Source: Methanolobus psychrophilus R15
GTDB lineage: Archaea > Halobacteriota > Methanosarcinia > Methanosarcinales > Methanosarcinaceae
Assembly: GCA_000306725.1 (NCBI GenBank)
Contig: CP003083.1
Coordinates: forward strand, 620,001 to 684,000
Length of the DNA: 64,000 nucleotides
Direction: 5' to 3'
In this document: positions 1 to 17,042 of the stretch, one piece after another
Layout: every line of letters starts with the position of its first letter
How positions within the stretch are numbered: the stretch's first letter is position 1
The notes under the pieces: model-generated
Database searches by the model: none
What the model was told of the DNA's origin: nothing
What the model saw: only the letters and a program-made list of their open reading frames with translations
Made by a program: the position numbers and the translations under genes

Positions 1-3000
1 TCATGTACCAATTTGATTTGTTTTCATCTTCAACAATATCGATTGGTTGTACCTCTACGCTTTCAACCATATCGGGTTCTTCTACAACAGTCCATTCATC
101 GCCTGCAATGGAGAATATAGAAAATCCGGAAGTCTGTGCGACGAAATAGAAGAACTCTTCATCTTCATCCAGTTGTTCTGTTGGTAATCTTTCCCAACCA
201 CCATTATTCAATCTCTCCATTCTAATGGATTCCGGAATAATATTGTTCTCTTCTACCCATTTTTTATCGACTTTAAAATAGATGAAAATATTATCTGCAT
301 TATGACTGCCAATAGTTCCAGTTCTACCAACATTTATCTCCATGAATTTATAAACCGGAGCATTATTTGAAGGAGTTCCTTCTGGAACGTTGTTCAAAAG
401 GTTGATTCTGTTTTCAACTATTCCTGCATTGGTCTTAGAATCGAAACTTATCAGAGTTACAGGTATATCATCAGCAGTTACATGATATTCAACCTTACTT
501 CCAACACCAACGTTCTGCCTGTTACTGAAAAGTGTATCTATGTTTTCAGATGGAGATTTTGAATCTGCAATATTCTGTTGTCTTGAACCGCCTGAAGATT
601 TTGGCACATCATCATCTTCAACTACTGTATCTGAATCATATCGAATTTGTAAATATGGATATCCATTGTTGATTTCAGGATGAATGTTCCATATATTGGT
701 GAAATTCCAACCTATAAAAGTAGATTGTTGTTTCATTTGTGAAGTTGTTCTACCTTCTCCACCAGCACTTTCTGATTGGAAAGATGTTTCAGTATTCCAG
801 TACGATTCGGTTATTGTTCCTGAATAGTAAAATCCAATTAGTCCTCCTACATTTGAATCACCTAAATCACCTATAACTTCACCAATTGAATAAGAATTTG
901 TAATGGAACTCTGCTCACTAATCACACCAACAAGTCCGCCTACACTCTCATTTCCAGTTACATTGGAAGTTGAATATGAATTGATTATTGTTGTACCACT
1001 TGCTTCGACTCCAACTAAGCCACCTACATCATCAATACCAATTACATCCCCTGATGAAAAAGATTCAGCAATTGTTCCATTATTCGCTCCTATAAGTACA
1101 TCTGTGCCTACAATTCCAACTAAGCCACCCACACCAGCAACACCAATTACATCCCCTGATGAAAAAGATTCAGCAATTGTTCCAATATTAAAACCAACAA
1201 GTCCACCTATGCCTAAACCTCCTTCAACAGATGCACTTGATATTGAATTTTCAATAATTCCTCCATTATAACCACTAAGTCCTCCAATAAGAAGACCACC
1301 ATCTACATGTCCAGAAGAATGTGAATTGATAATTGTACCTAAGTTTAAGCCCGCCAGAATACCAACACCTCCTAAACCACCAGTTACATTACCATGAACT
1401 CTGACATTTTTTATGACAGAATTTGGACCAAGATATCCAAATAATCCTACTCCTACTATATCTTCACTTGGTACATTTATGAATAAATCATTCACATGAT
1501 ATTCATTGCCATCAAAAGAACCACTGAACATGTCTTCCATGTCCTCCATCTCTTCCCCGAAATAAGCATTCGCTATAGGTATAAATCCTGCACCATCATT
1601 CCAGTTAACAGTTTCAGATGCATCAATATCATTTATCAGAATGTAATGTGCTGATAAATCCAAATTCATGGCTTGTAATTGGCATATTGTAGATACTTCA
1701 TATGGATTGTTTTCACTACCATCACCATTTTCAAATATAGGATACGATGTAGTTAAATTCTGCAAATATGGATAACCATTGTTTACAGCACAATGAATTT
1801 CCCATTTATGTGTGAAATCCCAATCTATAAAAGTAGATTGTTGTTTCATTTGTGAAGTTGTTCTACCTTCTCCACCAGCACTTTCTGATTGAGAAGATGT
1901 TTCACTATCCCAGTACGATTGGGTTATTGTTCCTAAATAGTTTAATCCAAGAAGTCCGCCTACCCAATTAGTTCCATTCACTTCACCTATGGAATATGAA
2001 TCTGTGATAGTCCCCCCACCACTACTTTTATCATCAGCATTATAACCAACAAGGCCACCTACGTAGTTTTCTCCGGTTACATCACCTGTGGAATGTGAGT
2101 TTGTGATAGTACCACAATAATTTATACCAACAAGGCCACCTACATTATCGCCAGTTCCGGTCACATTACTCGTGGAATATGAATTTTCAATAGTACCTGT
2201 ATTTAGACCAACAAGGCCACCTACATCATCACCAGTTCCGGTCACATCACCTGTGGAATATGAATCTGTAATAGCACCATCATTATAACCAACAAGGCCA
2301 CCTACGTAGTTTTCTCCGGTTACATCACCTGTGGAATGTGAATCTGTGATAGTCCCCCCATAATTTTCACCAACAAGGCCACCTACATTATCGCCTCCGG
2401 TAATATTAATATCAACCAACCCAACATCCTTGATTGTTGCACCAGCATCAGTGCGTCCAAAGAGACCTACATAATCCTCAGTGGTTCTGTCAATGAACAG
2501 TCCGGTTATCGTATAGTTTTGACCATCGAAAGTACCAGTGAATTTTACACTATTGTTCCCTATTGGCTTGAATCCTTTGAAAATTCCGGATTCACTATTC
2601 CAATTTTCAGTTTCAGATGCATCAATATTGTCACCTGTCACATTACCTGTGGAGTATGAGTTTTCAATAGTACCTAGATTATGACCAACAAGGCCACCGA
2701 CACTAATATCACCGGTCACATTACCTGTGGAATATGAGTTTTCAATAGTACCTGTATTTTCACCAACAAGGCCACCTACATTATTTTCTCCGGTAATATT
2801 AATATCAACCAACCCAACATCCTTGATTGTTGCACCAGCATCAGTGCGTCCAAAGAGACCTACATAATCCTCAGTGGTTCTGTCAATGAACAGTCCGGTT
2901 ATCGTATAGTTTTGACCATCGAAAGTACCAGTGAATTTTACACTATTGTTCCCTATTGGCTTGAATCCTTTGAAAATTCCGGATTCACTATTCCAATTTT

Positions 3001-3247
3001 CAGTTTCAGATGCATCAATATCATTTATCAGAGTGTAATTTGCAGATAAATCGTGTGCCACTGCTTGTAATTGAGAAATATTTGATATCTGATATGGATT
3101 ATCAGAGCTACCATCCCCTTCAAATACAGGTGTTGCAGAAGCAGTTGATATGAGAAGAGTTAATGAGAGGAGAAGAATTAAAGGATATTTAACATACGAT
3201 ACATGCAATGGTTTTTTGTTTATAAATTGATTTATATTGAGCCTCAT
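1..3247 (-). CDS. GLUG-repeat surface protein with PGF-pre-PGF domain, 3' end outside window
   Basis: The minus-strand frame opens with ATG at 3247 and stays open for about 1082 codons to the left edge, so the C-terminus is missing. Residues ~20-38 form a hydrophobic signal peptide ending near STASA. The body carries many GLUG-type repeats (VGGLVG followed by TIENSYSTGNVTG) in two blocks, each introduced by an NPYQIS..LQA segment. The second and third blocks close with the usual YWN..GG.T..QM....F.GW module. Near the left edge the residues FFYFVAQTSGFSIFSI and KVDKKWVEENNI match the PGF-pre-PGF domain, as in the protease at 59730. Such proteins are exported and usually end in a membrane-spanning anchor, expected just beyond this window. 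Likely role is adhesion or cell-surface structure; the exact ligand is unknown. Confidence 0.85.
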   Translation of the reverse strand, partial: MRLNINQFINKKPLHVSYVKYPLILLLSLTLLISTASATPVFEGDGSSDNPYQISNISQLQAVAHDLSANYTLINDIDASETENWNSESGIFKGFKPIGNNSVKFTGTFDGQNYTITGLFIDRTTEDYVGLFGRTDAGATIKDVGLVDINITGENNVGGLVGENTGTIENSYSTGNVTGDISVGGLVGHNLGTIENSYSTGNVTGDNIDASETENWNSESGIFKGFKPIGNNSVKFTGTFDGQNYTITGLFIDRTTEDYVGLFGRTDAGATIKDVGLVDINITGGDNVGGLVGENYGGTITDSHSTGDVTGENYVGGLVGYNDGAITDSYSTGDVTGTGDDVGGLVGLNTGTIENSYSTSNVTGTGDNVGGLVGINYCGTITNSHSTGDVTGENYVGGLVGYNADDKSSGGGTITDSYSIGEVNGTNWVGGLLGLNYLGTITQSYWDSETSSQSESAGGEGRTTSQMKQQSTFIDWDFTHKWEIHCAVNNGYPYLQNLTTSYPIFENGDGSENNPYEVSTICQLQAMNLDLSAHYILINDIDASETVNWNDGAGFIPIANAYFGEEMEDMEDMFSGSFDGNEYHVNDLFINVPSEDIVGVGLFGYLGPNSVIKNVRVHGNVTGGLGGVGILAGLNLGTIINSHSSGHVDGGLLIGGLSGYNGGIIENSISSASVEGGLGIGGLVGFNIGTIAESFSSGDVIGVAGVGGLVGIVGTDVLIGANNGTIAESFSSGDVIGIDDVGGLVGVEASGTTIINSYSTSNVTGNESVGGLVGVISEQSSITNSYSIGEVIGDLGDSNVGGLIGFYYSGTITESYWNTETSFQSESAGGEGRTTSQMKQQSTFIGWNFTNIWNIHPEINNGYPYLQIRYDSDTVVEDDDVPKSSGGSRQQNIADSKSPSENIDTLFSNRQNVGVGSKVEYHVTADDIPVTLISFDSKTNAGIVENRINLLNNVPEGTPSNNAPVYKFMEINVGRTGTIGSHNADNIFIYFKVDKKWVEENNIIPESIRMERLNNGGWERLPTEQLDEDEEFFYFVAQTSGFSIFSIAGDEWTVVEEPDMVESVEVQPIDIVEDENKSNWYM
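2401..3021 (-). repeat. In-frame 393-bp tandem duplication inside the GLUG gene
   Basis: The stretch 2401-2628 reappears nearly unchanged at 2794-3021, an offset of 393 bases or 131 codons, so the reading frame is kept. The copies encode the DIDASETENWNSESGIF segment plus the following GLUG start. The flanking parts of the unit are similar but more diverged. Confidence 0.85.
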
Positions 3248-3295
3248 ATATTCAATATCAATATTCTAATGCTATTTATATATATAGATTCGTAA

Positions 3296-3550
3296 AAAAG
3301 TAAAATAATAATCAGAAACTTCGGTAAACTTGCTATATTTATCAACTTTTTCGTAAATATTGTATTTTCAATTATCTTATTTATAGAGATTACAACAATT
3401 ACATTAGTTTCAGTGCGTTCCATTATATTCTTTATAAGCGTTATACTGCTCCTAATACCTGTAGAACCTGCATTGTTAGGAACATTTTCCTATTCCTTCC
3501 ATGACTCTGATAATTCAGAAATTGTTGAACTTGGAATAGAATATGAATGA
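3296..3550 (+). pseudogene. Possible remnant of a small membrane protein
   Basis: A plus-strand frame between stops has 84 codons and no ATG; a GTG lies at 3413. The translation contains two hydrophobic stretches (around IIFFISVILLLIP and VNIVFSIILFIE) followed by a polar tail ending LGIEYE. This amino-acid pattern looks like the C-terminus of a membrane protein. It could be a truncated gene left upstream of the GLUG gene, or chance in AT-rich DNA. The rest of 3248-3634 is AT-rich spacer with the likely promoter of the GLUG gene (TATATATAG near 3280). Confidence 0.25.
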
Positions 3551-3634
3551 GCAGAAGTTATAGATTGGGAATAAATGATAAAAATGAAATTGGAAATTAG
3601 TAAGAAGGAAAAATTAACGTTATTCTTAAAAATC

Positions 3635-4249
3635 TTATTTCCTAATAAATTCCCCACACCACTCTAAATGAATCTCATCTGCACCAATTATACCTCTCAA
3701 TTCCTTAAAGAATTTCTCATACATGACAACACATTCGTCAATAGATAGTTTGTTGTGAGCTTGGGATGATGAATTATTTTTATCAGAATTATTTGAAGCA
3801 TCTTCGTGTAATATCATTCTCAAAATAATGCAAATTAAATCATTTCCATACACCCTCTCAAGTCTTGAAAAATCTCTAGAATCTGAATCAACGGGTTCAA
3901 ATTGTTGAATATACGAGCCTAACTCATCTATACTCGAATGATTGTATTTCGATACCCAGTAAGACTTTGAGCGTTGAAATTTGAATTGTTTAGGATTCTT
4001 CATATTTCTTTTTAGGAAATCATTGATTTTGGCCTCAATACTTTTTACTTTTTCAGAATCTGTTACAGCAATTTCTGGGTCAAGTTGTTCAGTTTTAATT
4101 TCATGGCCTACTAATTGAGGAGGATTTTTCTTACATCTTCCACTTTCATTATATCCATCAATACTGTCAACTTCAAAAAATATGCAATCGCTACAAATTG
4201 CATCTTTCAAATACTCTCGTTTAGCAACCATGGTAATTTCATAATTCAT
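3635..4249 (-). CDS. Hypothetical protein with N-terminal Cys motif
   Basis: About 204 residues from ATG 4249, preceded by AGGTG at a good distance; a GTG three codons upstream is the alternative start. Near the N-terminus there is CSDCIFFEVD, then GRCKKNPPQ. This C-x2-C...C arrangement resembles the small metal-binding N-terminal motif seen in many phage and plasmid hypothetical proteins. The remainder is charged and contains a short run rich in Ser and Asn (DASNNSDKNNSSSQ). I do not recognise a family. It sits at the edge of the AT-rich accessory stretch and is likely transcribed alone. Confidence 0.6.
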   Translation of the reverse strand: MNYEITMVAKREYLKDAICSDCIFFEVDSIDGYNESGRCKKNPPQLVGHEIKTEQLDPEIAVTDSEKVKSIEAKINDFLKRNMKNPKQFKFQRSKSYWVSKYNHSSIDELGSYIQQFEPVDSDSRDFSRLERVYGNDLICIILRMILHEDASNNSDKNNSSSQAHNKLSIDECVVMYEKFFKELRGIIGADEIHLEWCGEFIRK

Positions 4250-4258
4250 AAATAACAC

Positions 4259-4759
4259 CTATTTTCAATAGTTTCTACTAAATATAATATATTGTTGATA
4301 TATAAAACAAATGCAACATCTTTATCAGGTTAGATTATAGTTAAGAACCGATTGTTTGAAACTTATGGTATTGATATAACTTTCAACAGGACATAGTTTT
4401 AGAACTCATAAGTTCCAAACCAAAGGTGTTTAACTATAAAAACGAAATACCCACTGCATTAGACCTTAAACTGAAAAACGCTATGAGGATACCCATCTCA
4501 AAACCACAATTGGCAACAACTGTCTAAAAGATTCAGCATTTTCAAATCTGTTTTTGCTGAATGTTTTAGACAGTACCGATTGCTATCGAATTATCAAACT
4601 TTTCATTTTAAAAAACCAACGATTATGAGAACTTATGAGAAGTTTTTTCCGATAGCAAGAGGCACTTCAGACCCCTAATATATTATATAGATTTGGCAAA
4701 TCATTTTTTCCGTTGTGCATTGCCATCGACCAACAACAACCGACTACATGACAAAAGAA
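4259..4759. other. Non-coding stretch with nested inverted repeats
   Basis: No supportable gene. It holds a strong hairpin at 4520-4573, with weaker paired segments around it: 4404-4415 with 4629-4640, and a TTGCTATCG segment near 4578 with its complement near 4650. It lies between the stop of the helicase-like gene and the start of the Cys-motif gene, so it may act as terminator and 5' leader. Confidence 0.5.
4520..4573. repeat. 19-bp inverted repeat, hairpin
   Basis: Arms 4520-4538 (CTGTCTAAAAGATTCAGCA) and 4555-4573 (TGCTGAATGTTTTAGACAG) pair at 18 of 19 positions around a 16-base loop. It could be a structured RNA, a bidirectional terminator or a MITE-like remnant. No flanking target duplication was recognised. 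Confidence 0.7.
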
Positions 4760-6619
4760 TTAAAAGAATTTGACATTAAACAAATTCTTAAATGATTCTG
4801 GAATATTGTAGCCAAACCAATAAACGTCTACATCATGCCTTGATGGTCTTACACGATGGATTATGTTTTCTGTTTGTATGGGAATCCAAATGCTCTGGAA
4901 TAAATAATTAAGCATCTCATTAGATGGATATGATGTTCGATTCTTTTCATCAACAATCCATCTTAATGAAGGCATCTCCCCATGCCTTGCAGCATAATAT
5001 AAATTCCATTGCTTACGGAACCAATCTTCAGGCGGTCTATAAGTGCCAATGACAAATAATACATCATTGTTTTCAAATTTATTTATTCCACCTGCCGAAC
5101 CAAAATGCAATGCAGGACAACCAAAGAGTGTTTTATCATCTTTCTTTATTTGATTTTGATATGTCAGGATGCATATCTTCTTGCCCAAATTTTTTAAATA
5201 TGTAATTTTGTTCTGAATTATTTTTTGATAAGCCTTTAAATCATCTTGCATATCGCTTTTGTTAAATTTGCAGTTAAAATTTTTAGGAATCCATATATTT
5301 GAATTTATTTCAGCATCTTGTTCAATAATTTCGCAAATACATGTATATTCAGGGAATAATTCTTTAAATTGCAAAATTAATTCCTTATAAAGTGATTTTC
5401 TTTTTGCGAAAGTTGCATCTATATATGTAATCGTTTTGAAATAATCAAGTTGCTTATACATCATAAGCTCATGGAATTGTAATTCGATATCTAAAGTAAT
5501 AGGTTCCACTTTTTTTACTTCATAATTTCGCATTGCATCGATTGCATCAAATGGATTTTCATCATAATTGAATTGATACATGTAATTGAATGTTGGCAAA
5601 CGAAATCCACATTTTGCACCTTCGACTATCATATCATCAACAATATCATGTTGGAGGCATAATGCATTAGGTTCATTGGCAACTGCTGCAAGTTGCCTTA
5701 ATCCATTTTCTAACAGGCATTCCCATCTCCATGACAGATTATTTTGCTCTACTCTGGCTTTACGGTTATAAAATTCAAGATATGTAATTATTGTCGAAAT
5801 TCTCAAATTGCATAATTGTTTGGCAACCGTTAGTTTATTTTTTATTGCCTTTAATTTTGTTGTGATTAGGTATTCATTGTGCAAATATATTGTATTTTCC
5901 AAAACATTTTTATATTTGAATAGGGGTGCAGTGTTTCGGTCAATTATCGCCTGAATAACGATTGCCATTTCTTCATCCTTAATATAATGCATTGTTTCAT
6001 GATGGTTGAATTTGTCTCTTGGTTTAATCTTAATTAATTTAGTAAGTTGGTCAATTATATTTGATTCGGAAAATTTTAATTTTAGGGGTCTTTCATTAAC
6101 CTCATCTACGAAAATGTTGTCGAAATCCCGAAAATCAAAAACAATTATTAAATCCATAGGAATTAAGACAGTAATTGGTGTGCCTACTTCCCTGAATTCT
6201 ATGTATTTAGTCCATGCCTGTTTAAATGGGCAATCTTTTGAAAGTCCACATTCTATCAGTCTGCATATAGTAGATGGGGATAGATTATTTTCCTGATGCA
6301 TTTTTTTAATGTCTTTATACATTTTGTCTAATACATTTTGCATCAACAAGCATGATTTTTCATACCCGATGATTTTGACATTTTCAACACCTGCTTTTGT
6401 AAATTTTGTGACATATTCATCTAGTAAATCATGAAATGGCGCAATAACCAAATTATTTTTATTTCTATTTTTAATTACTTTTTGAATTACATCATAAGAT
6501 TTGCCTAATCCTTGCATTCGGGAATCATGTATTGATTTGCTCAGATATTGAGGAAACTGTGTACTATCCTCATAAAGGATAGATTTATATACTTCTGGAT
6601 TATAGTTGTTATTAACCAT
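4760..6619 (-). CDS. Helicase-like P-loop protein of accessory element
   Basis: A 619-residue protein with a good ribosome site (AAAGGAG) before ATG 6619. Residues ~34-42 read QGLGKSYDV, a Walker A-like loop, and soon after comes NLVIAPFHDL. A possible Walker B is IFVDEV around residue 170. The C-terminal part has a helicase-like layout: KKICILTYQ, then an NKFENNDVLFVIGTYRPP segment, then HRVRPSR near residue 590, reminiscent of motif VI. These features resemble plasmid- or virus-encoded superfamily 2 helicases, but no named family was recognised. The neighbours are hypothetical AT-rich genes, consistent with a mobile element. Function in replication is inferred only. Confidence 0.6.
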   Translation of the reverse strand: MVNNNYNPEVYKSILYEDSTQFPQYLSKSIHDSRMQGLGKSYDVIQKVIKNRNKNNLVIAPFHDLLDEYVTKFTKAGVENVKIIGYEKSCLLMQNVLDKMYKDIKKMHQENNLSPSTICRLIECGLSKDCPFKQAWTKYIEFREVGTPITVLIPMDLIIVFDFRDFDNIFVDEVNERPLKLKFSESNIIDQLTKLIKIKPRDKFNHHETMHYIKDEEMAIVIQAIIDRNTAPLFKYKNVLENTIYLHNEYLITTKLKAIKNKLTVAKQLCNLRISTIITYLEFYNRKARVEQNNLSWRWECLLENGLRQLAAVANEPNALCLQHDIVDDMIVEGAKCGFRLPTFNYMYQFNYDENPFDAIDAMRNYEVKKVEPITLDIELQFHELMMYKQLDYFKTITYIDATFAKRKSLYKELILQFKELFPEYTCICEIIEQDAEINSNIWIPKNFNCKFNKSDMQDDLKAYQKIIQNKITYLKNLGKKICILTYQNQIKKDDKTLFGCPALHFGSAGGINKFENNDVLFVIGTYRPPEDWFRKQWNLYYAARHGEMPSLRWIVDEKNRTSYPSNEMLNYLFQSIWIPIQTENIIHRVRPSRHDVDVYWFGYNIPESFKNLFNVKFF

Positions 6620-6663
6620 TGTTTTTCTCCTTTGGAAGTATTTCGAGTACTCCCAATAATGTT

Positions 6664-6750
6664 TTAAGAAACTAAGTCAAGTTGTTTTTGAATTAAATAT
6701 TTCTGATGAGCAATTTGCCTAATCTTTTCCTTTTCATTTAGTTTCTTCAT
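6664..6750 (-). CDS. Possible small basic peptide (28 aa)
   Basis: ATG 6750 opens a 28-codon frame (starting MKKLNEKEKIRQIAHQ) ending at 6664, between the 65-residue gene and the helicase-like gene. It is lysine-rich and helical in character. A TTG further upstream would lengthen it. No clear ribosome site is seen, so it may not be translated. Confidence 0.25.
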   Translation of the reverse strand: MKKLNEKEKIRQIAHQKYLIQKQLDLVS

Positions 6751-6795
6751 AATTTCCAATACTCTCAATAATTGCAACCTGTTATTTATGAAAAT

Positions 6796-6993
6796 TCACA
6801 ATAACACCTGCTTTAATTTACTATAGTCTGTCGTTTCTGTAGTCTTATATTTGGGATATGTAGTCAATATATGCATCAATCTCATTTCTGTTTCAATCAT
6901 TCGCAATTCATCAATGTTAAAAATATTTAGATATTCAGTATCCAATTCATAAATTTCTTCATTATTATTATTAGTTATAAATTTGATTTTCAT
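6796..6993 (-). CDS. Small hypothetical protein (65 aa)
   Basis: Begins MKIKFITNNNNEEIYE at ATG 6993. It has a mixed charge and no membrane segment. It follows the 196-residue acidic paralogue by 39 bases, and a GA-rich stretch precedes its start. If the upstream gene were read in the other frame, its stop would overlap this ATG as ATGA, which suggests the two were once translationally coupled. Function unknown. Confidence 0.5.
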   Translation of the reverse strand: MKIKFITNNNNEEIYELDTEYLNIFNIDELRMIETEMRLMHILTTYPKYKTTETTDYSKLKQVLL

Positions 6994-7032
6994 ACGTATT
7001 CCTCTTCATCTTCCTCATCTTCTTCATCCTCT

Positions 7033-7614
7033 TCATCCTCTTCTACATTCTATTGTAAAATAAATTTCAAAACCGCCATCAATATCTCTGACTTCTCCTA
7101 CTTTATATTCTACATCATTGATTTTGAAATGTTCTAAATCTCTCAAAAACTCTTCAATTTCATCTTTAACTAACGCCTTTTCAAAATCCCAAAGACGGTC
7201 TCCGACATAGAGAACATTGCATTCACCCACCCAAGCAATCACATCATCTTCATATACATCGACCTTTTCATATTTTTCAGCAATAACAGCATCAACTGCA
7301 TCTCTATAATCACAAGGGTCTGCATAATCAATGCCTTCTTTTTTAACAACACCATCTTCCGATAGTGTTTCATCAAAGAGTAGGGTTTCAGATGTATCTG
7401 TGCCTTTGAGTACATATCTTTCTACTGTGGATTCTTCTACATAATACAATTCATTAGCAATATGCCCAAGTGTTACATAATCATCTTCGGTTTCGCAATC
7501 TGCATAGATATCTACCCATGAGTTATTACGGATTATACTGTATTCACTGCTATAGACAGTAAATTTCCTTATTATGTCGTTAAGCATTTTTTTAGTTATT
7601 TTTAATGTTGTCAT
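7033..7614 (-). CDS. Acidic paralogue C, truncated tail
   Basis: About 193 residues from ATG 7614, which has AAAAGGTG just upstream; a GTG three codons earlier is less likely. It shares the whole domain of its two upstream paralogues: an N-terminal TKKMLNDIIRKF, a central CETEDDYVTLG, then VERYV, GTDTSETLLFDE, YEDDVIAW, LYVGD and a closing INDVEYKVGEVRDIDGGF. It is rich in Asp and Glu. It ends ECRRG, but directly after the stop the DNA continues with GAA/GAG/GAT codons in another frame, which would give an acidic tail like that of paralogue B. It has its own promoter region at 7621-7688. Family unknown. Confidence 0.7.
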   Translation of the reverse strand: MTTLKITKKMLNDIIRKFTVYSSEYSIIRNNSWVDIYADCETEDDYVTLGHIANELYYVEESTVERYVLKGTDTSETLLFDETLSEDGVVKKEGIDYADPCDYRDAVDAVIAEKYEKVDVYEDDVIAWVGECNVLYVGDRLWDFEKALVKDEIEEFLRDLEHFKINDVEYKVGEVRDIDGGFEIYFTIECRRG

Positions 7615-7620
7615 TTTATA

Positions 7621-7688
7621 CACCTTTTAATCCATACCTTTATATTCAATGAACATGTTGTTAATGTGTTACTGGAAGTTTTACCATT
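7621..7688 (-). promoter_or_regulatory. Duplicated upstream region of acidic paralogue C
   Basis: This region shares two blocks with 9186-9253: CACCTTTTAATCCATA next to the ribosome site, and ACTGGAAGTTTTACCATT at 7671-7688. The second block is a candidate promoter element or operator, kept in both copies while the sequence between them differs. Confidence 0.5.
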
Positions 7689-7848
7689 TGAGTCTATATC
7701 TTATACGAGCAAACTTTAAATAAATTTTTGAAAGCAGATTTGTTATCAGACTTGTATTGAAATCTGTTATTTAAAGTTTGTTATCAGGTTGTTAGCACTT
7801 TAACTAACTAATAATTAAATTGCATACCTGAATCATTTTCTGATTTCT

Positions 7849-8484
7849 TTACATCTTCTTTAATATTTTTGTATTAATTGGGTATATGATTTCGACCTCA
7901 TTGTCGCCTGCTTCATCCTCTTCATCCTCTTCATCTTCTTCACCATCAAATTCGATTTCAAAACCGCCATCGATTTCTCTGACTTTCCATACTTCATATT
8001 CTACATCATTAATTTCAAAAGTTTCTAAATTTTCCAGAAAATGTCTAATTTCTTCTGTAACCAAATTTTTCCAGAAATCCCAAAAACTGTCTCCGACATA
8101 GAGAGCATTGCTTTCCCCTTCCCATGCAATCACATCATCTTCATATACTTGAACCATTTCATATTTTTCCCTAATGACAGCATCAACTGAATCTTCATCA
8201 ATGCCTTCTTTTTCAGCAACATCCTCAAAGGATAGTGTTTCGTCAAAGAGTAGGGTTTCTGATGTATCTGTGCCATTGGGTACATATCTTTCTACTGTAG
8301 GATATGCTTCCCAATATAATTCATTATCAATACGCCCAAGTGTTACATAATCATCTTCGGTTTCGCAATCTGCATATATTCGTACCGATGAATTACAGTG
8401 GATAACACTGGATGCGCTATCGAAAACCGTAAATCTCTTTATCATGTTGTTAAGCATTTTTTTAGTTATGGTTAATGTTGTCAT
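7849..8484 (-). CDS. Acidic paralogue B with Glu/Asp tail
   Basis: About 211 residues from ATG 8484; an upstream GTG overlaps the stop of paralogue A. It carries the same domain as its neighbours (KKMLNNMIKRF, CETEDDYVTLG, VERYVPNGTDTSETLLFDE, YEDDVIAW, LYVGDSFWDF, INDVEYEVWKVREIDGGF). After the shared domain it continues with a strongly acidic segment (FDGEEDEEDEEDEAGDNEVE) and ends with a short hydrophobic-basic tail (IIYPINTKILKKM). It is translationally coupled to paralogue A. The overall negative charge resembles DNA-mimic or RNA polymerase-binding proteins, but this is only an analogy. Confidence 0.7.
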   Translation of the reverse strand: MTTLTITKKMLNNMIKRFTVFDSASSVIHCNSSVRIYADCETEDDYVTLGRIDNELYWEAYPTVERYVPNGTDTSETLLFDETLSFEDVAEKEGIDEDSVDAVIREKYEMVQVYEDDVIAWEGESNALYVGDSFWDFWKNLVTEEIRHFLENLETFEINDVEYEVWKVREIDGGFEIEFDGEEDEEDEEDEAGDNEVEIIYPINTKILKKM

Positions 8485-8489
8485 ATTAT

Positions 8490-9179
8490 TCACTCTCTAC
8501 ATTCTATTGTAAAATAAATTTCAAAACCGCCATCAATATCTTCTATTCCCCATACTTTATACTCGACATCATTGATTTTGAAATATTTTAGATTTTTTAG
8601 AAAATATTTAATTTCATAATTAACGATTTGGCTCTCAAAATCCTCAACATCATCATAGACAAATAGAAGTATGTTATCTGCATAAAAACCGATTATGTTA
8701 TCTTCATATACTTCAACCATTTCATATTTTTCCTTAATAACAGCATCAACTGCATGTCTATAATCGTAACTGTTTGCATAATCACTTTCATCAATGCCCT
8801 CATTGTAGGCAATATTCTCTTCCATTTCTGTATCCTCTTCCAGTAGGGTATCAGATGTATCTGTGCCTTTTGGAACATATCTTTCTACTGTAGGATATTT
8901 TTCCCAAAATAATTCATTATCAATACCACAAAGTGTTACATAATCATCTTCGGTTTTGACATCTGCATCATCAGTTTTGACATTATCTTCATCAGATTCG
9001 CAATCATCTTCAGATTCGACATCTGCATCTTCAGATTCGACATCTGCATCATCAGATTTGACATATGCATATATATCTACCCATGAATTACCACCTCTGG
9101 TATGGAAATATTCGCTACTGGAAACCCTAAATTTCCTTATCATATCGTTAAGCATTTCTTCTGTTATTTTTGCAATCAT
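8490..9179 (-). CDS. Acidic paralogue A with internal acidic repeat
   Basis: About 229 residues from ATG 9179, preceded by AAAAGGTG. It is the first gene of the unit and overlaps the next at its stop. It has the common domain (EEMLNDMIRKF, EDDYVTLCGIDNELF, VERYVPKGTDTSDTL, INDVEYKVWGIEDIDGGF) plus an insert near residues 40-75 made of repeated DADVESE/DADVKTE units. The insert seems to have grown by short-unit duplication from the CETEDDYV segment of the paralogues. Function unknown; strongly acidic. Confidence 0.7.
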   Translation of the reverse strand: MIAKITEEMLNDMIRKFRVSSSEYFHTRGGNSWVDIYAYVKSDDADVESEDADVESEDDCESDEDNVKTDDADVKTEDDYVTLCGIDNELFWEKYPTVERYVPKGTDTSDTLLEEDTEMEENIAYNEGIDESDYANSYDYRHAVDAVIKEKYEMVEVYEDNIIGFYADNILLFVYDDVEDFESQIVNYEIKYFLKNLKYFKINDVEYKVWGIEDIDGGFEIYFTIECRE

Positions 9180-9185
9180 TTTATA

Positions 9186-9253
9186 CACCTTTTAATCCAT
9201 ATCTTTATATACTGCAAGCACATAGTACATGTGCCACTGGAAGTTTTACCATT
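9186..9253 (-). promoter_or_regulatory. Duplicated upstream region of acidic paralogue A
   Basis: Carries the same two conserved blocks as 7621-7688, with ACTGGAAGTTTTACCATT at 9236-9253. It implies that promoter and gene were copied together. Confidence 0.5.
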
Positions 9254-9368
9254 ATAGTCTATTTTATATGTCACTAATGACTTATATAACTTTTAACACC
9301 AGTTCTGATGTCAAATCAGGATTGTTATCAAGTTATTAGCATTATAATTTGTTACCACACCTGTTTTA

Positions 9369-9788
9369 CTAATAATCATCAGGATTCATTATTGTAAATT
9401 TGTGTGGAATGTCACTATGATTAACCCATGCTTTGAATTTCTCGCCCTTTGGAGATTCAATATCACAAACAAAAAAAGTGCTTGTAGGGTCTTCTTTAGA
9501 TTGTTCTGAGCATTGATTATTACACGCTATAATTAAATCTAAAGTTGCAGGAATATTAAGCAATTCACTCCCATTTTCATCCGGTTTTTCAGTTAGATAA
9601 CCATGTTGTCTTAAAAGATTTGTAGTGATGAACCTGAAAGGACACTCATCATGATTGATATAAGGAATCATTTTTGTATCATAGAAAATACCGTCTTCTA
9701 CTGCTTGAAATGATGTGTATTCAAAAGTTGTTACCTTTGACTCTTCTAATCCTAATTTGTCTAATATAATCTTTATTCCATTTTCCAT
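9369..9788 (-). CDS. Hypothetical protein (139 aa) with RHH partner
   Basis: Starts MENGIKIILDKLGLEE at ATG 9788 with GGAGTAATAA upstream. It has a mixed alpha/beta composition, no signal peptide and no membrane segment. Two cysteines lie close together (ACNNQC). It is five bases downstream of a ribbon-helix-helix gene, so the two are one operon. The pairing resembles a regulator with effector or a toxin-antitoxin module, but no toxin family was recognised. Confidence 0.55.
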   Translation of the reverse strand: MENGIKIILDKLGLEESKVTTFEYTSFQAVEDGIFYDTKMIPYINHDECPFRFITTNLLRQHGYLTEKPDENGSELLNIPATLDLIIACNNQCSEQSKEDPTSTFFVCDIESPKGEKFKAWVNHSDIPHKFTIMNPDDY

Positions 9789-9793
9789 TTTTA

Positions 9794-10015
9794 TTACTCC
9801 TTTCTGTTTTTCTCCATAATCTTCAATTGCTCATCACACAATACCCGAATCCAAGCAGAGCGTGAAAGCATGCCTCTTGTGTTCTCTATCCTGTCCAACA
9901 ACGTATCTTCAATCCTTAGGGATGTATTTGTTTTATTTTGCTTTTCATTCATATTTTTAAAGTCCTTTTTTAGTTCTTCAATTGTCTTGTAATATTCTGT
10001 CTTATTACAAGTCAT
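9794..10015 (-). CDS. Ribbon-helix-helix DNA-binding protein
   Basis: The C-terminal half reads TNTSLRIEDTLLDRIE, followed by a helix-turn-helix-like RGMLSRSAWIRVLCDEQL. This is the layout of CopG/Arc-type ribbon-helix-helix proteins: one beta strand, helix, turn, helix with a conserved Ser-Arg-Ser. The N-terminal ~25 residues are charged. ATG 10015 is chosen; a TTG at 10048 or an ATG at 9952 are alternatives. It probably represses its own operon with the following 139-residue gene. Confidence 0.65.
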   Translation of the reverse strand: MTCNKTEYYKTIEELKKDFKNMNEKQNKTNTSLRIEDTLLDRIENTRGMLSRSAWIRVLCDEQLKIMEKNRKE

Positions 10016-10363
10016 TATATGTGATTCATTGTATTTAAATTTATGCAATGGATTAAACTTATGTCAAATAAACAATAGTAGTATTTAAATAATAGAACAA
10101 CTTGCCCTATTTTTTGTTTAGTGTTTTAATAGATTAGGAGATTATAGGATTTAAAATTAAAAATAAGGGAATCGGAAGAGAATTGTCTGTAAAAGTAGTA
10201 TTAAGCTCTGGAATAAGCCTATTAGAAAAGATAAGCCTTTTTATACGATTAAAAAAATGATGTTCTATTGCATCAATATGAAAAGATTATACTTTTACCG
10301 CTTAAACGAAGCAAATGTGCATATAAAGAAATATCTATTTAACGTATAATAGTAGAAACAAAG
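10016..10363. other. AT-rich spacer
   Basis: No gene supported. It holds the likely promoter of the RHH operon and the 3' end of the intein-like gene. Nothing else stands out. Confidence 0.5.
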
Positions 10364-11362
10364 TTATACTCCGACAATAAATATTTTATCATTTCTTTTT
10401 ACAACAAAATGCTGATTGGTCAATTTTGGATGCCACAATGCCCCTTTGAAATTTTCTATTTCTTTGAAAGTATCGTGATAATTAGCATGGAATACGTTTG
10501 AATAATTTCTTTCATCCACTTCGATAGTCAAAGCTGAATATGCCCTTCTCTTTATGACATAATGAGTTATATAGCCAAGATGCAAACATAATACTCTGTA
10601 AAATTCTTGAACAGAAACATTGTTATTGATATATATTATCCTGTCACCTTCAAAGTAAGCGTTATTGGCAAGATTCATTCCTTCATAAAGCATTCCTAAT
10701 TCTTCGTTTTTTAGATGAAGTAGATTCCATTTTGGTCTGAACTTTTCGTCAAAGCTATCATAAATCCACTTGTTTTCTTTTGTATCTACAATCTTTACGA
10801 TTTGAGTTTCAAACCACTCGTTTGCAACAGTAGTTCTTGCAGATTCAGTTGTATGCTCAATTTCCAATGAACTTAACATGTCGAACAATATATCCATATC
10901 TTCTTTATTGGACTCAATTGATTGATGAATTTCAATTACACCATCATCATTTTTATATCCGGTTGAAATTATCCAACCAATTAACATTGCCTGAAATTCG
11001 CCTATTTCAATTTCACCATCATATTCACCGGAATTGATGATTAGATATCCACCATGCGGAGTGATATCTTTTATTTTTTCAACGTGCCAAGTGTCCTCCG
11101 TAAATTTCTTTCCATGAGTTGTACTTTTTATATATTTTAATATTAATGAGGATTCAGGGGGCACGAAAAAATCATTCCATCTGTTGCTAATGGAATACAT
11201 TTTTCCTTCATATTCCTCAAGAGATAATCCAGAAATTCTTTCATACTTGATTTTTTCATCATAGAGTGAATATATCGCAACCCTATCAGATTCAACAATT
11301 TCATCATATCCTTTCCAACCAATTTCTGTTAAGACTTTAGTTGCAGCATCAATTCCCTTCAT
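10364..11362 (-). CDS. Stand-alone intein-like protein (Hint plus LAGLIDADG), decayed active sites
   Basis: A 332-residue protein spanning almost exactly one intein. Residues 3-16 (GIDAATKVLTEIGW) match intein block A, but the first-position Cys is Gly3. Block B, normally VTPNH, reads VPPES at 67-71, so the Thr and His are lost. Residues 124-136 (AMLIGWIISTGYK) match LAGLIDADG motif 1 with its Asp changed to Thr; a second copy lies near 223-235 (GMLYEGMNLANNA), with Asn where Asp is expected. The C-terminus (WHPKLTNQHFVVKRNDKIF, then IVGV) matches the final intein blocks, with Val in place of the terminal Asn. A TAA sits in frame two codons before ATG 11362, so no N-extein exists; GGAG is at 11370-11373. 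Splicing and cleavage are probably lost, yet the frame is intact. Confidence 0.75.
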   Translation of the reverse strand: MKGIDAATKVLTEIGWKGYDEIVESDRVAIYSLYDEKIKYERISGLSLEEYEGKMYSISNRWNDFFVPPESSLILKYIKSTTHGKKFTEDTWHVEKIKDITPHGGYLIINSGEYDGEIEIGEFQAMLIGWIISTGYKNDDGVIEIHQSIESNKEDMDILFDMLSSLEIEHTTESARTTVANEWFETQIVKIVDTKENKWIYDSFDEKFRPKWNLLHLKNEELGMLYEGMNLANNAYFEGDRIIYINNNVSVQEFYRVLCLHLGYITHYVIKRRAYSALTIEVDERNYSNVFHANYHDTFKEIENFKGALWHPKLTNQHFVVKRNDKIFIVGV

Positions 11363-11752
11363 TTTTTAACTCCATTCATGGTTTTTTTCGGTTGCAATAT
11401 TTTCGATGAGCTGTCTTGGTTTTGTACCTACTGCGTTGAACAATATAATATATGTCATCAATCATATTAAAAAGTATCTTTTGTTAAAAGCAGAATAAAT
11501 AATGGTGTAGAAAACAATTCAAATTCCCACATCATTAAACTTACAGTACAATTAGTGACAGTACCTACATATTTGCTTGTATTGTTTATGATTTCCTATG
11601 ATGGTTAGGCAAGGACATTCGGTAATAGTAAGATGCATAAATTGGATAGATTGGAATACCTTCCTAAACCCTGCCAGAAACTCCTAGAATTGCACTGGTG
11701 GCGTTGTCAGGACAATTTCAGGGGATTGTAAAGATTGGATGATTGAAGGGAT
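11363..11752. other. Spacer at boundary of the AT-rich region
   Basis: No gene supported. Base composition changes here from AT-rich to the more balanced composition of the following genes. No tRNA, integrase or clear direct repeat marks an element end. Confidence 0.45.
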
Positions 11753-14974: not shown

Positions 14975-15937
14975 TCAATCACCTTTAAGCAAAGAGCGCA
15001 CGGTTTCCTTCACGCACTTCTTTGAGCCCCATTTAGGTTTCCATCCCAGATCTTTTAGCTTGTCCACAGACAGCATCATCTTTGGGACATCGCCTTTCCA
15101 TCCGCGATTTCCGCCGGTATATTGGAACTCGACATTCTTAAGTCCCATCTCCTTAACTATTATCTCACCGATAAGCTTCGGAGTGATGGTGTCCTCCGAG
15201 CCGATGTTCAAAATATTGATATCACCAGTGCTGTTCTCAATGGCAAAACCCATTGCATCTACGCACTGCTTTACATGCAGGTATGATTTGGATTGCCTGC
15301 CGTCACCCAGGATCTCAAGAGAGTTGGGGTTATTCTCCAGTTTCTCAATGAAATCCACGATGATGCCATGTGTGCTTCTGGGGCCTATGATATTCGCAAA
15401 GCGGAATATCCAGGATCTCATGTCAAATGTGTGGGAATAGGATGTTATCAGTGCTTCACATGCCAGCTTGGAAGCCCCGTACAGGGATATCGGCACAAGA
15501 GGGCCGTAGCTTTCAGGCGTAGGAATGAGGGTCGCTTCCCCGTAGACCGTCGAAGTGGAAGTGAAAGCAATATCCTTTATACCTTTAAGGCGCATGGCCT
15601 CAAGCAGGTTGTATGTAGCTGTGATGTTCTGTTCAAAATGCACATAAGTGTCAGTTGCACCCAGCCTTACGTCAGGGTTTGCAGCCACGTGGAACACAAA
15701 GTCAACGTTCTCGCAGGCTCTGCTAAGCTCTGAGGTATCCAGCAGGTCGCCCTCTATGAAATATACACCTTCATTCCCAAGATGATCGTCTATAAATCCA
15801 CGGCTTCCAGAGGTCATGTTATCAAAGATTGTCACTTCGTTGCCTTTCTTTACCAGCATGTCTACTATATGGCTCCCTATGAATCCTGCTCCGCCGGTGA
15901 CAAGCACTCTTCTTTCTGAAAAAGGATTGTATAACAT
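14975..15937 (-). CDS. NAD-dependent sugar epimerase/dehydratase (extended SDR)
   Basis: 320 residues with the Rossmann motif TGGAGFIG at ~15-22, a nucleotide-binding Asp at IFDNMTSGS, the active-site region STSTVYG and the catalytic pair YGASK near residue 155. The length and order match UDP-glucose 4-epimerase-like enzymes acting on nucleotide sugars. The C-terminal substrate part ([13 protein letters not shown]) also fits this group. It probably supplies an activated sugar for the glycan cluster to its right. Its promoter region contains the IS insertion about 200 bases upstream. The exact sugar cannot be read from sequence. Confidence 0.85.
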
Positions 15938-17042
15938 TGGTTTTTCTCACCCGAGATCGTATTTGAGTCTGTCTATATGAGTCCCGCGCATATAAGTCTA
16001 ATATCAATCTCCTCTTTATCTGAATGTATTCTATCAGGAAAATATCACTTATATATGCTTGCTTTTTTATAGATGATACTAAATATATGTCGGGACTGTA
16101 TATATTTTTACCGGTTATTTTTTGATTATTGTCATTAGGCTCTGTAGAAATCCTCAGTTGAATTGAATAGACAACCTTGGCATGTATGCCAAGGTTGTGC
16201 ACTATCAGTTTAATTTTAATATCTTTCACCTGATTCCAGTACTTCCTGGACTTGATTTCTTCTCCATATTTCCTTTTAAGGACTGAGAATGCTGTTTCAA
16301 CCAGGTTTCTTTTATGATAAAGTTCTTCATCAAACTCGAATATCATTTTTCTACGATAGTAACCTCTGATTCTTTTTCTCTTCCTATGTCTTAGAGGAAT
16401 CATAGCTACTGCATTTAATTGTTCTCTTGTTAGTGAATGTATGGCTTCTGAATCGTAGCCCTTATCCATCACATAGTAGTTTGATCTTCTAGTTTGATGA
16501 CATTGCTTAATCAATGCCATTGCATGTTTTGCGTCATGAACAGGTTTACCTGATATCTTAAAACCAGTAATGACTAACTTATCAGTATCAACAGAAATGC
16601 TTGTTTTCAAGAATGATCTACGTTTCTTTCCAGTTCTGAGCGAATAATAGTAGCTACAGTGGCCACTGGTAAATCCACTTGAATCAATAGCAGTAACTTC
16701 AATTCTTTCTCCATGTGAATAGAACAGGTCAAGTGTTTGTTTCAATAGTCCATTGAAGTAAACGGACTTAATTCTTCGAGTGAATTTATGCAACGTAGTA
16801 TAATGTGGAATTTGTTTTAACCCAATTTTCTGCTGCACCTTATCCATCACTTCAATAAGTTCAACAGTACTTCTATAGTCAACATCAAGATACTCTTTCA
16901 ATAAAACAAGTGTCAGAAGCTGATGTTGCGTATAAGTCCTCTTGGAATACTTACAACTGTATATCTGCAAATGTGAGTTTCCTGATACAGCTAGCGCTGT
17001 ATCAACAAACTTTAAGTACTTATTAATCAAAACACTAATCAT
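15822..17042 (-). CDS. IS5-family-like DDE transposase, reads out of the element
   Basis: Starts at ATG 17042 (AAAGGGG upstream). The first ~300 residues lie inside the insertion sequence and carry DDE features: [11 protein letters not shown], a [12 protein letters not shown] segment and [16 protein letters not shown]. There is no stop before the element's left end, where the frame encodes STEP within the terminal repeat. It then runs on through host DNA for about 105 codons, partly opposite the epimerase gene, so the tail is not native. The 8-bp target duplication fits the ISH1-like branch of IS5. Confidence 0.8.

Follow-up and report, generated by a model that had tools for sequence, protein, structure and literature searches.

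A free-standing, intein-derived open reading frame with all seven catalytic positions replaced in an AT-rich island of Methanolobus psychrophilus R15

An intein is a self-splicing, DNA-cutting parasite that is normally buried within another protein, and the usual view is that an intein is in the end either deleted or fixed as a splicing element. The locus described here raises the question of whether a whole intein can outlive its exteins, its splicing and its nuclease activity and, if so, whether it does so as a dying relic or as a protein with a use of its own. The stretch of DNA analysed (the window, 64,000 nucleotides) comprises bases 620001-684000 of the single-contig genome of M. psychrophilus R15 (3,072,769 bases). 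On its minus strand, at 10364..11362 with the stop codon included, lies an open reading frame (ORF) of 332 codons, whose stop abuts the last intein residue. An in-frame TAA two codons 5′ of the ATG (11366..11368, minus strand) rules out an N-extein fusion, and a Shine-Dalgarno-like GGAG can be read directly 7 nt before the ATG (11370..11373, minus strand); the open frame with its ribosome site had been described in these terms in an earlier note made from the letters alone, and the description holds. In addition, an AT run about 80 nt upstream of the ATG (ATATATTATATTG; 11441..11453, minus strand) resembles a TATA box and is a possible archaeal promoter, such a run being weak evidence in DNA this rich in A and T. 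The codon signal of the ORF resembles that of the neighbouring island genes, and does so in the right frame only. No locus tag of the Mpsy_05, 06 or 07 series is mentioned in the main text of the M. psychrophilus R15 TSS paper.

The homology of this ORF to inteins is, on both sequence and model, not due to chance. Pfam, NCBIfam and PADLOC returned nothing meaningful for it, and the one PHROGs hit, to thymidylate synthase, was weak (E 0.002) and spanned ORF residues 6-86. A tblastn search against 2.3 Gb aligned residues 4-331 with phage inteins at 20-23% identity and E values down to 8e-8, which sit in DNA methyltransferases of phages and in a Synechococcus phage gene that carries the annotation T4-like gp55, and a profile built from these relatives brought in further inteins from viral and genome contigs. 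The best relative, an intein within a Prim-Pol protein (L039), is 29% identical (phmmer E 2e-37); the other nearest relatives are inteins of a tyrosine recombinase (L040) and of an anaerobic ribonucleotide reductase (L041). With the family alignment, AlphaFold predicts a full-length intein fold (pLDDT 93.5, pTM 0.92); the single-sequence model is uninformative (pLDDT 32), and the fold assignment therefore rests on homology. Over residues 1-332 the best PDB matches of the model are intact inteins, namely TliVMA (Z 24.4), PI-PfuI (21.0) and PI-SceI (about 20). Thus, the claim that the ORF is one complete intein between stops is upheld, and the two checks proposed with it agree, the profile alignment giving homology from end to end with the catalytic positions replaced and the structure prediction giving the fold. 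By alignment and predicted fold, the Hint fold is present with blocks A, B, F and G in order. It is divided into an N-terminal part with splicing blocks A to B (residues 1-112; 11027..11362, minus strand) and a C-terminal part with blocks F and G (residues 301-332; 10367..10462, minus strand), which is the most accelerated stretch. Between them lies the LAGLIDADG endonuclease domain (residues 113-300; 10463..11026, minus strand), in which two LAGLIDADG helices, at 122-134 and 219-232, stand on a predicted pseudo-symmetric saddle that matches I-DmoI at Z 14.

An intein is inserted in a host protein, and the ORF, with stops on both sides, has none in frame; six-frame reading of its two flanks revealed no extein remnants. 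In a full-length set of 116 sequences, gathered with search patterns that favoured canonical ends and may therefore have missed degenerate members, the window protein alone is free-standing. The other 115 lie within exteins, all start with Cys, and they end in Asn in 113 cases and in Gln in one, the remaining C-terminus being lost at a contig end. No second intein-like match was found in the genome itself, and no orthologue of the ORF in 26 genus mates, 149 relatives, 237 genomes of the class or the phylum sample.

Conservation at each residue was scored over 98 non-redundant relatives, and in this alignment all seven catalytic positions of the ORF are replaced. In block A, the nucleophile at position 1 is Cys in 98/98 relatives but Gly3 in the ORF (11354..11356; this and the following codons are on the minus strand). 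In block B, the Thr or Ser found in 98/98 relatives is Pro68 (11159..11161) and the His found in 98/98 is Ser71 (11150..11152). The block F Cys (93%, 91/98) is His311 (10430..10432), and the terminal Asn (97/98, with one Gln) is Val332 (10367..10369), the last residue before the stop. Thr134 (10961..10963) stands where relatives have the first LAGLIDADG acid (E in 80%, D in 18%; one or the other in 96/98), and the second (D 95%; D or E in 97/98) is Asn233 (10664..10666). Splicing calls for Cys, Ser or Ala at position 1, a block B His and a terminal Asn or Gln, in place of which the ORF has Gly, Ser and Val; a homing endonuclease calls for two metal-binding acids, in place of which it has Thr134 and Asn233. 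The earlier note had named the changes of Cys1 to Gly, of block B Thr and His to Pro and Ser and of the terminal Asn to Val, and each of these is confirmed by the alignment. Its list of lost splicing residues was nevertheless short of the block F Cys at H311 and of one more substitution near the C-terminus, Thr to V330. It was likewise right that both LAGLIDADG acids, T134 and N233, are changed, but the first of them is more often Glu than the Asp that it had assumed.

Two readings of these losses have to be weighed against each other. The one that we favour, with moderate confidence, is a fold-retaining, non-catalytic intein derivative kept by selection. Its main rival, which we regard as possible but doubtful, is that the ORF, once a nuclease-dead intein or free-standing endonuclease gene, was left behind in an integrated element and is losing its residues there under relaxed constraint, functionless and with a frame that is still open by chance. 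Such a relic would fit the foreign, AT-rich island and the lack of orthologues, and an intein pseudogene in Arthrobacter provides a precedent (PMC3196547). It would also fit the branch of the window protein, the longest in the tree (1.93 vs a median of 0.53), and the hydropathy correlation at changed columns, which at 0.39 is the family minimum, like that of the lowest relative, and equals that of a neutral divergence of 0.1-0.2. The longest branch and the lowest hydropathy fit together indicate that relaxed constraint on the ORF is real, and the relaxation may be partial or total.

Against the relic stand the frame itself and the distribution of the changes. Simulated neutral divergence of 0.2 from L039 leaves about 12 stops. 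In a neutral model that used the ORF's own codons and base composition, with several divergences and kappa values, the joint probability of no stop and the loss of three given residues was at most about 1e-4 at every divergence and kappa tried, a case that allows Cys1, Asn and the nuclease acids to have been lost before or at release. For no stop and all seven catalytic losses it was about 1e-7. Simulation from L039 agrees with the model; catalytic losses need not be random, which weakens this calculation. Uniform neutral decay that leaves the frame open is thus improbable. Loss is also non-uniform: among columns conserved at 85% or more, 18/27 non-catalytic ones are kept vs 0/5 catalytic ones (Fisher p 0.01). 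Identity to the nearest relatives is 31-38% in Hint-C, vs 47-69% among the relatives, and 19-27% in the endonuclease domain, vs 30-32%, whereas in Hint-N it is close to normal, at 25-32% vs 28-40%. Change localized in this way is what one expects where the active site has been set free and the scaffold retained. The earlier suggestion that the ORF is not in simple decay thus gains indirect support from the open frame, the retained columns, the near-normal Hint-N and the normal codon signal, and has to be qualified by the relaxation that is visible alongside them.

If the fold has been kept by selection, the question is what for, and the charge of the protein bears on the answer. The window protein has a pI of 5.2 and a net charge of -17, below every relative (minimum -7), whereas its nearest relatives carry +26 and +30. 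The acid shift is confined to the endonuclease domain, the Hint part having a charge of -1. That domain has a net charge of -16, vs -4 to +21 in relatives, and lies below all 92 aligned, the nearest having +17 and +21. On the strands of the saddle that would face DNA, a sequence count rather than an electrostatic map gives -5 in the ORF vs -1 to +13 in relatives; the saddle is thus not the basic surface that binds DNA. Host proteins are acidic too (median pI 5.6), and host-wide acidity may account for part of the shift. Two MCM inteins of the same family as the ORF (L202 and L212) have intact splicing residues and lost LAGLIDADG residues, and their charges are -7 and -11 vs -2 to +1 in the nuclease-intact sisters L183, L184 and L211. 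Because these nuclease-dead, splicing-intact inteins have also turned acidic, the charge change of the ORF is best read as lost DNA contact; they show in addition that nuclease loss and acidification can precede the loss of splicing, as the relic would have it.

These data bear directly on the role that had been proposed for the ORF, DNA binding or regulation, of which one form would be a domesticated, WhiA-like regulator whose LAGLIDADG saddle binds neighbouring promoters without cutting them. WhiA, a transcription factor with a LAGLIDADG fold, is regarded as domesticated (PMC3984707), and the modelled endonuclease domain of the ORF does match it at Z ~14. WhiA, however, carries a helix-turn-helix (HTH) DNA-binding domain (PMC11701221), and Pfam found no HTH in the ORF; the reversed charge of the domain and of its saddle strands, and the like acidity of the nuclease-dead MCM inteins, argue against it further. 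A DNA-binding role is therefore unlikely, and this part of the proposal is not supported. An acidic DNA mimic or decoy from a mobile element, its target being perhaps a DNA-binding or defence protein of the host, is more improbable still: the strong acidity does sit on the former DNA-binding domain, and three strongly acidic paralogous proteins (pI ~4) are encoded nearby, but host proteins are acidic anyway and the island is without a PADLOC match. That the ORF is a still-active free-standing homing endonuclease using other residues is very improbable, since it retains neither metal-binding acid and its charge has switched sign, even though a second free-standing intein, L190, retains nuclease residues and a basic charge (+17).

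L190 (G279:C10:148063-149193; L209:8058-9203) was brought up by a profile search of 392 phylum genomes and is a free-standing full-length match of 381 aa from another family. It starts with TTG after GGGGTG and ends in SGSN followed by a stop. Like the window protein, it has Cys1 replaced by Gly and ends at the intein end; unlike it, L190 keeps block B Thr and His as well as both nuclease acids, and is basic, with a net charge of +23. The genes next to it read like tail genes of a provirus-like region. The tree places L190 far from the window protein, and 0/200 bootstrap trees join the two, so that its origin is independent. Single-protein scans of viral contigs revealed no close relative of either. 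L190 is thus a candidate free-standing, intein-type homing endonuclease of an archaeal provirus; it suggests that an intermediate free-standing state exists in such proviruses, and its free-standing form means that an intein can turn into a gene of its own within the mobile DNA of archaea.

Our preferred reading, selection for a non-catalytic derivative, can be put as the following model. A virus- or plasmid-type intein with Hint and LAGLIDADG domains would have left its host protein as a whole body and become an independent gene, most likely passing through a stage as a free-standing homing endonuclease gene carried by a mobile element and ending as a dead protein. The protein would since have given up splicing, cleavage of DNA and, probably, binding to it, selection keeping the fold while the active-site residues were set free. 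The gene would be expressed, giving a stable Hint-LAGLIDADG protein with no catalytic activity that acts through contact with other macromolecules, more probably protein than DNA, to the putative benefit of the mobile element or of its host. More specifically, and tentatively, we propose an acidic, non-catalytic, free-standing protein, derived from an intein, whose shape is what selection keeps: a counterpart in archaea to HO or WhiA that neither splices, cuts nor binds DNA. If true, this would extend to archaea and mobile elements a route from parasite to independent gene that is so far best known from yeast HO. A whole intein would have outlived exteins, splicing and nuclease, with L190 as a second, independent free-standing intein in which the nuclease residues remain.

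Comparison with known systems places the ORF apart from each of them. Bifunctional phage and viral Hint-LAGLIDADG inteins (L039 in Prim-Pol, L040 in an integrase, TliVMA, 7qsu) are of similar length, block order and predicted fold but lie within exteins and retain Cys1, block B His and the terminal Asn, in most cases together with both nuclease acids. In yeast, HO and WHO are stand-alone intein-like proteins with an active nuclease and a zinc finger (PMC7282813). Like the ORF, they are intein-related, non-splicing and free of exteins; they differ in that the nuclease is kept, the zinc finger is C-terminal and motif G is absent, whereas the ORF runs to the exact intein end with no added domain and has lost the nuclease acids. 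WhiA (DUF199) shares the LAGLIDADG fold, which in its case the cell has recruited to a role other than homing, but has no Hint domain, whereas the window protein is acidic and its chain is fully Hint and LAGLIDADG. When the literature was searched for inteins that are orphaned or stand alone, the one hit was the Arthrobacter pseudogene, Arth_1007 of strain FB24, which does not splice and from which both the His of block B and the Cys of block F have been lost (PMC3196547). It keeps short exteins (66 aa in total), of which the ORF has none, and the ORF goes beyond it in that Cys1, Asn and both nuclease acids are lost too. Thus, none of HO/WHO, WhiA and Arth_1007 combines full intein extent, lack of exteins and loss of all catalytic residues. 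Two observations concern the viral relatives: the L039 contig (IMGVR_UViG_3300029811_000124) carries two inteins, that of the Prim-Pol protein and another whose host protein is, by reading, metallophosphoesterase-like, and the intein of L040 splits its tyrosine recombinase at the HxFRH motif.

The ORF is held in a foreign-looking, AT-rich island (3100..11500) of about 28-33% GC, vs about 45% in the right host flank. A gene of 619 aa within it (4760-6619, minus strand) encodes GLGKS, a Walker-A-like motif, and matches no family; its role in integrated elements is probably in replication or as a helicase. A paralogue of it lies at 2.315 Mb of this genome, four other genomes (G020, G015, G009 and G030) contain homologues, and this recurrence in four genomes and at a second site of its own points to an integrated mobile element. 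Among the island paralogues elsewhere in the family, no relative of the intein ORF stands alongside. One homologue of the 619-aa gene lies near a possible integrase, by reading. Three tandem paralogous genes (7033-9188, minus strand) encode very acidic proteins (pI 4.05-4.3) with D/E-rich repeat tracts; they share 73-87% DNA identity in parts, and the one tested is without family match. Just downstream of the intein ORF, a protein of 84 aa (9794-10048, minus strand) gave no profile match above the cut-off, and its second half reads like a ribbon-helix-helix regulator. At 2363-2628 and 2756-3021 lies a 266-base direct repeat of 99% identity, which we read as a recent duplication, in a repeat-rich stretch that is perhaps a surface-protein gene. 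On the other side of the island, an AT-rich putative transposase gene, by reading, of 406 aa (15822-17042, minus strand) overlaps a sugar-epimerase-like gene (14975-15937).
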